From: Candidatus Treponema faecavium
GTDB taxonomy: Bacteria; Spirochaetota; Spirochaetia; Treponematales; Treponemataceae
Direction of reading: 5' to 3'
Assembly: GCA_019113455.1 (NCBI GenBank)
Contig: DXHG01000103.1
Location: 1 to 33,922, forward strand
DNA length: 33,922 bases
Shown here: one piece after another, positions 1,070-21,431 of the stretch
Position numbering within the stretch: position 1 is the first letter of the stretch
How the letters are laid out: every line of letters starts with the position of its first letter
Notes under the pieces: generated by a model
What the model was told of the DNA's origin: nothing
Database searches by the model: none
What the model saw: only the letters and a program-made list of their open reading frames with translations
Translations under genes and position numbers: made by a program

Positions 1070-1380
1070 TTTGCCGACGGCAAAAGTTTTCCCGTTTAAA
1101 AAATAAAAATTTGCCGCTGGCAAAATTTTATTTTGCCGTTTATCAGACTTGAATTTTGCCGATGGCCAGCGGCGCACTTGCCGATTGCAAATTTTTTGTT
1201 TGCCGTCGGCAAATGAAACGTTTGCCGATTGCAAGTGTCTCACTGGCCGACGGCAAATTTCTTACCGGATAAACGGCAAAATAAATATTTGCCGCCGGCA
1301 ATTTTTTTATTTGCCACCGGCAAAAGTAAATTTTGCCATCGGCAAATTTTTTATTTGTAATCGGCAAAAGTTTTGCGGCA
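1070..1380. repeat. 22-bp-phased palindrome array, copy 1
   Basis: No convincing gene occupies 1024-1449. It holds about a dozen 15-bp units of the form TTTGCC-NNN-GGCAAA, with starts at 1110, 1132 (half), 1155, 1177, 1199, 1221, 1243, 1266 (half), 1288, 1310, 1332 and 1354, plus a more isolated unit at 1070-1084. The start-to-start distance is 22 or 23 bp throughout, so there are 7-8 bp spacers and all units lie on about the same helical face. Core variants include CCGACGG, CCGTCGG, CCGATTG, CCGCTGG, CCGATGG, CCATCGG, CCACCGG and CCGCCGG. A second copy lies at 19212-19430. Because the unit lacks stop codons in every frame, it generates spurious ORFs on both strands. Its function is unknown; it could be a multi-site protein-binding array, a mobile small repeat, or a structured RNA/DNA element. 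Confidence 0.9.
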
Positions 1381-18865: not shown

Positions 18866-18944
18866 CCCTTGTAAACTGCCGCAGCAATACGTTGATATGG
18901 CGGCTTGCGATACAGAAACGGATAATACCGTGATGTGATTATTT

Positions 18945-19017
18945 TGAGCTACACTGGATTCGAACCAGTGACCCACGCCTTAAAAGGGCGTTGCTCTACC
19001 TACTGAGCTAGTAGCCC
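18945..19017 (-). tRNA. tRNA-Lys (anticodon TTT)
   Basis: A 73-nt cloverleaf on the minus strand. The acceptor stem is GGGCTAC with GTAGCTC (one G-T pair) and discriminator A. The D arm is GCTC/GAGC. The anticodon stem is ACGCC/GGCGT with loop CTTTTAA; the anticodon TTT is at plus 18982-18984. The T arm is CACTG/CAGTG with GTTCGAATC. The CCA end is not encoded. It lies about 80 bp upstream of the rpoZ promoter, on the same strand. Confidence 0.97.
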
Positions 19018-19019
19018 AT

Positions 19020-19211: not shown

Positions 19212-19430
19212 TTTTCCCATTTAAAAAATAAAAATTTGCCGATTGCAAAATTTTATTTTGCCATTTATCAGACATGCATTTTGCCGATGGCCAGCGGCGC
19301 ACTTGCCGACGGCAAATTTTTAGTTTGCCGTCGGCAAATGAAACGTTTGCAATCGGCAAGTGTCTCGCTGGCCGACGGCAAATTTCTTACCGGATAAACG
19401 GCAAATGTAAATTTTGCCACCGGCAAAAGT
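19212..19430. repeat. 22-bp-phased palindrome array, copy 2
   Basis: Same element and same orientation as the array at 1070-1380. Units start at 19235, 19257 (half), 19280, 19302, 19324, 19346, 19368, 19391 (half) and 19413. The stretch 19212-19405 aligns without any gap to 1087-1280 (194 bp, 15 differences by my hand count, about 92 percent identity). The later units of copy 1 (1288, 1310) have no counterpart here. Of the 15 differences, 10 lie in palindrome cores. At unit 19346 the sequence is TTTGCAATCGGCAAG against TTTGCCGATTGCAAG in copy 1, an exact inversion of the 13-bp inner part. It sits between tRNA-Lys and the three-gene cassette. Confidence 0.9.
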
Positions 19431-19442
19431 TTTAGTTTGTTA

Positions 19443-19646: not shown

Positions 19647-19675
19647 TTGACTTTGGAAAGATTCAGGGGTATACT
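19647..19675 (+). promoter_or_regulatory. promoter of the DUF6884/GIY-YIG/DUF4145 cassette
   Basis: TTGACT (19647-19652), 17 bp, TATACT (19670-19675), five of six consensus bases each. Start near 19682, with a leader of about 28 nt to the ATG at 19710 that contains the AAGGAAG ribosome site. Confidence 0.75.
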
Positions 19676-19709
19676 GATAGTATCTTATATTAGTTATGAA
19701 GGAAGTATC

Positions 19710-20156
19710 ATGGATAACATGAAGCACATAGCATTGATCGCCTGCAGCAAAAGCAAACAGGGACAAAATGACCCCGCCAGAAAATTCAAGGCGCAGGACA
19801 TTTACACAGGCAATACGTTCAAACTGGCAAAAACGGAAGGCATACGGCGGTTCGGCTGCGAAGACTTTCATATTTTATCATCCAAGTATTATCTGCTCGA
19901 TAAGGATGACGGGATTTCGTACTACGACATGTATCTTGGTTCGCAATCGGCGTCATATAAGAAAATGTGGGCCGGCAAAGTTATTTCAGCCCTAAAAGCA
20001 AAATATGATATAGAAAACACAAAATTTTATATCTTTGGCGGCAAACCATATTATGAAAATCTCACACCGCACCTCAACTGCGTGGTGTTTGGTTATATAA
20101 GCAGCAGCAAAATCGATCTTGAAAAACCAACCGAATACAAAAACGGAGGGAAATAG
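19710..20156 (+). CDS. DUF6884-type protein (YaaA-like)
   Basis: A 148-residue protein. The frame is open from 19479, but the ATG at 19710 is chosen because AAGGAAG precedes it, the promoter ends at 19675, and homology starts at MKHIALIACSKSK. That opening, then AQDIYTGNTFKLAKTEG and FHILSSKYYLLDKDD, is the pattern I associate with DUF6884, a domain related to YaaA-type proteins. The biochemical role is not established. It heads a three-gene operon: the next gene starts 2 bp after its stop. No membrane segments are seen. Confidence 0.75.
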   Translation: MDNMKHIALIACSKSKQGQNDPARKFKAQDIYTGNTFKLAKTEGIRRFGCEDFHILSSKYYLLDKDDGISYYDMYLGSQSASYKKMWAGKVISALKAKYDIENTKFYIFGGKPYYENLTPHLNCVVFGYISSSKIDLEKPTEYKNGGK

Positions 20157-20158
20157 CC

Positions 20159-20710
20159 GTGATTCAGGCGTCAAAACTGCGCGAAAAACAGGAGCTGCAG
20201 AACATCCGTGATGTCCCCGGCTATTACAAATGGTGGGCGCGCAAAGAAGAACTCGAGCTGATTCTCAACGCCCTGCAGGTGCCGTTTGACGACATAAAAG
20301 ACGCGCTCGAAACAGCTGACGGGCTGTTCTGCATCTATGTGGGAATCGCCGAAAAAGAATCGGTTCGTAACCGGCTGAGCTGGCATGTAAACGACCCGCA
20401 CACGGAAACGCGCGTGCGAAACGGCATCCTTTCAACGCTCCGCCAGAGCATCGCAAGCATTGTCGCCGGCAATCAATACGACAAAACCGCGACAAATGCC
20501 TTTATCGATAAACTCTTTATTGAATGGTTTTATAGCGAAAACCCGATAAAATCGGACAGTGCGCATATTGAACTGCACGAAATTGAACACCGGCTGATGA
20601 CGGACTATTTTCGCATCCTGAACATCCGCGATAACCGCCATCCCTGCGCCGCGTATACGGCAAAAAAACTGAGCGCACTCAGAAAAGCAGGCAAACACAT
20701 ACAAAACTAA
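20159..20710 (+). CDS. GIY-YIG-like nuclease domain protein
   Basis: A 183-residue protein with GTG start at 20159, supported by GGAGGG at 20145-20150. DVPGYYKWW (about 18-26) resembles the GIY strand, LFCIYVGIA (about 56-64) the YIG strand, and SVRNRLSWHV (68-77) the following helix with the expected Arg. The C-terminal half has HIELHEIEHRLMTDYFRILNIRDN, which could supply the catalytic Glu. GIY-YIG nucleases cut DNA in restriction, repair and homing. Here the motifs are divergent (GYY for GIY, YVG for YIG), so nuclease activity is an inference. The gene is sandwiched in a compact operon with DUF6884 and DUF4145-like genes. Confidence 0.65.
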   Translation: MIQASKLREKQELQNIRDVPGYYKWWARKEELELILNALQVPFDDIKDALETADGLFCIYVGIAEKESVRNRLSWHVNDPHTETRVRNGILSTLRQSIASIVAGNQYDKTATNAFIDKLFIEWFYSENPIKSDSAHIELHEIEHRLMTDYFRILNIRDNRHPCAAYTAKKLSALRKAGKHIQN

Positions 20711-20729
20711 GCGCAAGGAGTTTTTGGTT

Positions 20730-21431
20730 ATGTCTGATTGGCGTGATATCTGGAAAGAAGCGATACGGGTAAACAGCTCGGTCGCAAGAAGCGGCGACGT
20801 TTCGGAATATGACCGGTTATACAAAAAATATGGCGACGACGGAATGATTCACTATACCGCCGCCGCTTCATATGAACTACTGGGAAAACAAACAGAAGCC
20901 ATGGCTGAATACGAGAAGGCAAAAGATTGTTTTCCCGCACCGCACTGGAAAGACGTGGCGGCTAAAAACGCAGAGCGGCTAAAAAAACGGCGAAGTCCTG
21001 AGCAGTTTTTCGAACAGGATGATTTTAATGAGCTTTTGTGGTACGGTTTTCAAAAAATGTATGAATTCGTCAACCTTGATCCGTTTAACCGCTACATCGC
21101 TTTATCCGCATTGGCAAGAGGCAGTTCCGAATGGTCACTGTCGCTGGTTGATTTCAGAACAGTCATGGAGCTTACAATAAAACAGTATTACCCTGAGATA
21201 ATAGAAACTACCTGCCAAAAGGATTCACTGCTTGCTACTTTAAAAGAATTACAAAAACAAACCGATATTCCCAAGCATATTATCGATACGCTGCACGCAA
21301 TCCGCAAAGCCGGAAATATAGCGGCGCACGACGCAAGGATTGTCGAGGCTGAAAAGATCGCTAACGCAAAGAATTTTATAAAAGCAATGGCGTATTTCAA
21401 CAATCTTGAACCAAACAAATATATAGTATAA
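20730..21431 (+). CDS. TPR and DUF4145 (HEPN-like) domain protein
   Basis: A 233-residue protein. The start is ATG at 20730, with AAGGAG at 20715-20720. Residues about 25-78 look like a TPR pair (HYTAAASYELLGKQTEAMAE). Residues about 130-225 match the DUF4145/HEPN-like fold: SLVDFRTVMELTIKQYYPEI, then LLATLKELQKQ, then IRKAGNIAAHDARIVEAE. IRKxGNxAAH is the family hallmark (Arg and His of a HEPN-like site, here seven residues apart). HEPN proteins are often RNases in defence systems; DUF4145 proteins are often found beside nucleases. It is the third gene of the cassette, 19 bp after the GIY-YIG gene. Confidence 0.7.
   Translation: MSDWRDIWKEAIRVNSSVARSGDVSEYDRLYKKYGDDGMIHYTAAASYELLGKQTEAMAEYEKAKDCFPAPHWKDVAAKNAERLKKRRSPEQFFEQDDFNELLWYGFQKMYEFVNLDPFNRYIALSALARGSSEWSLSLVDFRTVMELTIKQYYPEIIETTCQKDSLLATLKELQKQTDIPKHIIDTLHAIRKAGNIAAHDARIVEAEKIANAKNFIKAMAYFNNLEPNKYIV

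Follow-up and report, generated by a model that had tools for sequence, protein, structure and literature searches.

A DUF6884 and GIY-YIG nuclease gene pair with a linked DUF4145 gene in a Treponema-like spirochaete: a candidate defence cassette

The Locus and Its Genes

The window described here is the whole stretch of 33,922 nucleotides that was analysed, contig C225 of a draft genome of 2.2 Mb in 245 contigs, and the relatives of this genome are Treponema-like spirochaetes. Three intact open reading frames, all on the plus strand, are confirmed at 19710-21431 and encode a DUF6884 protein, a GIY-YIG nuclease and a DUF4145 protein (Table 1); together they are called the cassette in this paper. 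As the initial annotation of this DNA had described, the genes are tightly spaced and have good Shine-Dalgarno sites: the gaps are 2 nt and 19 nt, the sites are of the GGAGG/AAGGAG type, and all three products score above the Pfam cut-offs. The G + C content of the cassette is 44-49%, compared with 55-62% in the flanking blocks. The cassette had also been credited with a strong promoter of its own. The site given in Table 1 is indeed well placed, being the only such site on the plus strand, and it agrees well with the consensus, but such matches are no commoner than in shuffled sequences (7 in the region against 5.2 +/- 3.0, that is, no excess).

No simple empty site was found for the position that the cassette occupies in the window: in G507, the only genome of the same genus, the region is rearranged and tRNA-Lys lies on another contig. 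A link of the cassette to the adjoining uracil-DNA glycosylase (UDG) gene was considered and rejected, because UDG and priA are adjacent without the cassette in G507.

Table 1. Positions of the features discussed in the text (positions without a locus name are those of the window)
Feature	Position	Strand	Remarks
Palindromic repeat array	1071-1345		second array in the window
tRNA-Lys	18944-19018		one flank of the cassette; UDG/priA on the other flank
Palindromic repeat array	19230-19432		
Sigma-70-like promoter TTGACT-N17-TATACT	19647-19675	+	about 35 nt upstream of the DUF6884 gene; 10/12 match
DUF6884 protein P0003 (YaaA/YfjM/DpdC-related, PADLOC PDC-M57A)	19710-20156	+	148 aa; PF21818
GIY_YIG_2 nuclease P0001	20159-20710	+	183 aa; GTG start; PF20815
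WRDIW-(weak TPR)-DUF4145 accessory protein P0002	20730-21431	+	233 aa; HEPN clan; PF13643
DUF6884 gene overlapping an EndoIII-like HhH-GPD gene	L087:206-1347		
Large spirochaete lipoprotein genes	L018:899-9628, L020:1680-7174, L111:5138-7263, L149:5318-6948		between or beside DUF6884 and GIY-YIG genes
Small membrane-like protein family	L019:1610-2131, L099:7630-8148, L102:6985-7506, L103:7974-8387, L098:5276-5839		no Pfam match

The repeat array that had been noticed beside the cassette exists and consists of palindromic units, but it is unrelated to the cassette. Its core TTTGCCGNCGGCAAA occurs in 120 exact copies in the genome, compared with 0 for a reversed control, and a second array in the window has the same core. 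Because the core is a genome-wide family, the repeats are not regarded as part of the cassette, and a reading of the array as a cassette component or as a CRISPR-like array was rejected on these counts and on the palindromic nature of the units. Both arrays in the window are made of palindromic units of about 22 nt, and their internal order is alike.

The DUF6884 Protein and the GIY-YIG Nuclease

The DUF6884 protein matches PF21818 with 81 bits (curated cut-off 30) and the PADLOC model PDC-M57A with 79 bits (E 9.6e-23). In addition, it has a weak match to DpdC (E 2.8e-4), and the best PDB match of the DUF6884 profile is YaaA (5caj), which is also weak (E 0.007). The CxxxK motif is kept, C12 and K16 being invariant in 17 homologues, and the homologue alignment further shows Y32, S57, Y72, W87, G111 and Y114 to be invariant. 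The LSAxxG motif is not found in this protein, which has LSSKYY and so keeps the LS start; the last position of the motif is G, Y, H or D among the homologues. The literature connects members of this family with DNA: YfjM of Bacillus subtilis was found among the proteins that bind abasic and ribonucleotide lesions, and a model shows it flipping the base into a conserved site (PMC11701544), and DpdC, assigned to either DUF6884 or DUF328, hydrolyses a modified base in DNA (PMC12839542, PMC11888242).

The nuclease matches GIY_YIG_2 (PF20815) with 82 bits (curated cut-off 22.4), and the GIY domain spans residues 21-176. The conservation of the GIY-YIG residues, on which the initial annotation depended, is borne out by 19 nuclease homologues, in which G21, Y23, Y60, G62, R72, E143 and N155 are invariant. 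G21/Y23, Y60/G62, R72, E143 and N155 are the predicted catalytic set, E143 and N155 being assigned by their order and 12-residue spacing. Structure prediction, which had been proposed as a check, gave confident models (AlphaFold2 pLDDT 93.5 for the DUF6884 protein and 94.3 for the nuclease), but Foldseek searches of the PDB with either model gave no significant match. A sequence profile of the nuclease likewise found no match in the PDB. Since Foldseek gave no significant matches, the fold assignment of both proteins is based on the Pfam profiles.

DUF6884 and the Nuclease Form a Conserved Pair

A profile of the nuclease only gave 21 GIY-YIG loci from one-genome-per-species collections, and in 16 of them the DUF6884 gene adjoins the nuclease gene, the ends usually overlapping or touching. 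The order of the two genes is reversed in one locus (L021), and in 2 further loci from Spirochaetaceae a large lipoprotein gene lies between the upstream DUF6884 gene and the nuclease gene. The pair is distributed over at least five bacterial classes, among Spirochaetota, Clostridia, Bacilli, Fibrobacterota and Lentisphaeria. Its hosts include Treponema, Ruminococcaceae, Lachnospiraceae, other Clostridia, Bacilli, Fibrobacter and Lentisphaeria, and the flanking genes vary. Within Treponemataceae (274 genomes) all 16 genomes with GIY_YIG_2 also have DUF6884 (1.9 expected), and the two genes are adjacent in 15; the pair is absent from G507. DUF6884 and the GIY-YIG nuclease are therefore a real conserved unit.

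Both genes are under purifying selection, with dN/dS of 0.08-0.24 in close pairs, and a mirror-tree comparison of their distance matrices gives r 0.77, a value reached in 0 of 2000 permutations. The nucleases of Ruminococcaceae and Lachnospiraceae are 56-57% identical to the window copy, compared with 45-48% for some Spirochaetaceae copies, and this closer similarity points to a spread of the pair by horizontal transfer. The nuclease was also sought in viral contigs, plasmids and phages, where no match was found; because of this, the mobility of the cassette is deduced from the variability of its sites only. Across loci in which the identity of DUF6884 to the window copy drops to 26-35%, that of the nuclease stays at 42-62%, and in a Treponema locus (L100) a nuclease with 50% identity is paired with a DUF6884 protein with 31% identity. 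This divergence pattern fits a division of labour in which DUF6884 would be a variable specificity subunit and the GIY-YIG protein a common cutter.

Some further features of these loci are recorded here. Large spirochaete lipoprotein genes recur between or beside DUF6884 and the nuclease gene, and a family of small, probably membrane, proteins without a Pfam match recurs beside DUF6884 cassettes (Table 1). The nuclease gene is split in two frames while DUF6884 is intact in L030/L109 (Treponema vincentii OMZ 806) and in L036/L110.

Natural Fusions and the Candidate System PDC-M57

In four Treponema loci (L096, L098, L101 and L102) the DUF6884 protein carries, as a C-terminal fusion, a further domain of about 190 aa, and these fusions match both PADLOC models, PDC-M57A and PDC-M57B. 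The fused M57B domain has weak matches to GIY_YIG_2 (E 8e-4), GIY-YIG and DUF123 and carries the motif NG[VI]Y...[IV]R[VI]GTH...RL...H, so that we read it as a predicted divergent GIY-YIG nuclease. An hhalign comparison of the window nuclease family with the M57B domain was not significant (probability 2.5%), and the window nuclease does not match PDC-M57B even at E<=1.

PDCs are computationally predicted defence candidates (PMC12988326), and a literature search found no published test of PDC-M57. The window pair resembles PDC-M57 in that DUF6884 (M57A) goes together with a GIY-YIG-like domain (M57B), in a gene of its own or as a fusion, but it differs in having a separate GIY_YIG_2 protein without an M57B match and a DUF4145 gene in addition. 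Because the nuclease does not match PDC-M57B, the window is not filed under this system, and the two would share a superfamily by motifs only. The earlier statement that no named system has exactly this set is thus nearly right, except that PADLOC-DB already holds PDC-M57 as a candidate of the DUF6884 plus GIY-YIG-like kind.

A Variable Site and Its Defence Neighbours

In Treponema, a site between a gene for a 258-aa membrane protein and an ABC-F gene (L099, L102, L103, L104 and L189-L191) is occupied in different ways. It is empty in G370 and G463, it holds DUF6884, the GIY-YIG nuclease and DUF4145 in G401, G448 and G459, it holds the fusion version with DUF4145 in G348, and in G294 it is filled with a BrnT toxin, an XRE-like gene and a Sel1-repeat protein. 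The site behaves like a defence hot spot. Other cargo is uncharacterised, namely proteins of 235-275 aa, an 88-aa GELHRLLGGYPGTNHRMP protein and the Sel1-repeat protein, and may be worth mining for defence genes. At other loci, the neighbours of the pair are a HaeIII restriction-modification (R-M) system (L028) and GmrSD (L035), and bSEFIR is found about 4 kb off in L025. The genes thus occur both at a variable chromosomal site and beside known defence genes, which supports the initial annotation.

The DUF4145 Protein and Its Link to DUF6884

The third protein matches PF13643 with 38 bits (curated cut-off 23.1), while the TPR part announced in the initial annotation scores 17 bits, under the cut-off of 27 bits, and is weak. 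DUF4145 is a HEPN-clan family, and it was reported near R-M and McrBC genes (PMC3710099). The motif in 22 homologues is [IVL][RK]xxG[ND]xAxH with an invariant H. The protein had been called HEPN-like; the clan membership agrees with this, but the HEPN Rx4-6H motif is not found, the spacing being R-x7-H and R being replaced by K in 4 of the 22 homologues. An RNase activity is possible, as a candidate which is not to be assumed.

When the DUF4145 protein alone was searched against 274 Treponema-family genomes, 24 had convincing homologues, and DUF6884 is above its cut-off in 33 of the same genomes. Both occur together in 18 genomes compared with 2.9 expected, and are neighbours in 16; the Fisher P of 1.5e-14 overstates independence, as many of these genomes are congeneric, and it is the variety of architectures and sites that carries weight. 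The DUF4145 gene is divergent from DUF6884 and the nuclease gene in L099, L100, L103 and L104 and downstream of them in the window, and it accompanies the DUF6884-M57B fusion in all four fusion loci. Furthermore, five loci (L088, L089, L091, L092 and L094) combine it with CARF, a 304-aa protein, DUF6884, a kinase, a vWA protein and a PP2C-like phosphatase, of which kinase and CARF were called by profile and vWA and PP2C were read from sequence. This operon is possibly a CARF-linked, TerY-P-like defence system. The five operons also encode a Zn-ribbon-like protein, with the TPR-DUF4145 gene divergent, and L090 and L093 are cut copies. In L087, CARF and TPR-DUF4145 genes are followed by the DUF6884 gene, which overlaps a gene for an EndoIII-like HhH-GPD protein.

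Pairs outside Treponema are missing this DUF4145 gene, and inside Treponema it is usually divergent and not the third gene of an operon. A fixed triplet as the unit was rejected, because the pair stands alone outside Treponema. Accordingly, the suggestion that the triplet is conserved in other genomes holds in that the genes do recur together, the pair across phyla and DUF6884 with DUF4145 in Treponemataceae, but not in that the three form a fixed set.

Is DUF4145 then simply a bystander, with a separate function at common variable sites, while DUF6884 and the nuclease are the whole unit? In Clostridia, Bacilli, Fibrobacter and the T. denticola group the pair occurs complete with no DUF4145 gene, and where the gene is present its orientation relative to the pair varies. 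DUF4145, however, tracks DUF6884 and not one site, being adjacent to it in the 16 genomes across GIY-YIG, fusion and TerY-P/CARF contexts, and this makes the bystander explanation the less likely one. The DUF4145 gene belongs with the cassette, and its true partner is DUF6884, not the nuclease. A broader picture, put forward tentatively, is that DUF6884 may be the hub of a modular base-sensing defence in Treponema, tied to TPR-DUF4145 and to at least four output modules: GIY_YIG_2, the fused M57B GIY-YIG-like domain, the EndoIII-like HhH-GPD protein, and the TerY-P-like set of CARF, kinase, vWA and PP2C.

The HEPN relationship and the position of Treponema cassettes beside BrnT-type toxin genes would also suit abortive infection, in which DUF6884 or DUF4145 would sense infection and the GIY-YIG nuclease, an HEPN RNase or both would attack host nucleic acid. 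This is rather improbable in view of the altered motif described above and of the lack of a DUF4145 gene in most pairs outside Treponema.

Proposed Function

The reading preferred here, with a probability of about one half, is that the cassette is a horizontally exchanged, defence-type unit of the DUF6884 plus GIY-YIG kind and acts as a split restriction system dependent on base modifications or lesions. The pairing and linkage of the genes are observed and a role in defence is likely; the base-reading step is what we infer from the relatives of DUF6884. In this scheme DUF6884, like YaaA and DpdC, would bind DNA and flip an abnormal base, whether modified, damaged or abasic, into the CxxxK pocket, acting as a reader or remover of the flipped base, and the separate GIY-YIG protein would then cut the DNA at the abnormal base. 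The two together would amount to a split type IV-like restriction enzyme directed against phages, and the DUF4145 protein may be a Treponema-specific accessory, that is, a regulator, a scaffold or a second (HEPN) effector.

Defence systems with GIY-YIG nucleases have been described before, namely CMoRE, a type IV GIY-YIG restriction enzyme (PMC12923530), and SNIPE (PMC13190303). CMoRE / PD-T4-3 resembles the cassette in concept, a GIY-YIG nuclease being joined to a sensor of base modification, but in CMoRE a single protein carries its own C-terminal sensor, which has a unique fold, whereas the window has a separate sensor (DUF6884) and nuclease; the window nuclease, with its GIY domain filling residues 21-176 of 183 aa, does not have the CMoRE-type architecture. 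SNIPE (DUF4041 and GIY-YIG, membrane-bound) likewise pairs a GIY-YIG nuclease with a domain that binds DNA, but the window proteins have no recognised DUF4041 or fused membrane anchor and are two-component. DpdC and YfjM/YaaA share with the cassette a domain of the DUF6884/YaaA type that is connected with bases in DNA; unlike the Dpd 7-deazaguanine system, the cassette has no dpdA, dpdB or other dpd genes, and its partner is a nuclease. Base-excision restriction (the R.PabI family and Brig1-type glycosylases) is similar in its attack on one base, after which the strand breaks, but the folds differ from DUF6884, whose base excision is hypothetical.

The same relatives could suggest accessory DNA repair without defence, DUF6884 recognising lesions in the DNA of the cell itself, next to which the GIY-YIG protein would incise like UvrC. 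The lesion binding reported for YfjM (PMC11701544) and the overlap with an EndoIII-like gene in L087 would agree with repair. Against it are the occurrence of the pair in only 16 of the 274 family genomes and its absence from the sole genome of the same genus, the exchange of the cassette with unrelated cargo at the variable site, and its co-location with restriction systems, BrnT and CARF/kinase operons, so that repair is an improbable function. Lastly, GIY-YIG is a common fold of homing nucleases and the insertion sites vary, but a selfish element spread by its own homing endonuclease is most improbable, because the cassette lies at many unrelated sites and not inside genes, introns or inteins, the nuclease is fused to or paired with DUF6884, and no long recognition site or intron context was seen at the loci examined.

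Concluding Remarks

Catalogues of defence systems represent this cassette only partly, as a predicted candidate, and current models miss the GIY_YIG_2 form of the DUF6884-nuclease pair. If split restriction is the function, the cassette would be a small two- or three-gene system that helps to explain the candidate entry PDC-M57, and DUF6884 would serve bacterial immunity as a general reader of bases, usable with different nucleases.
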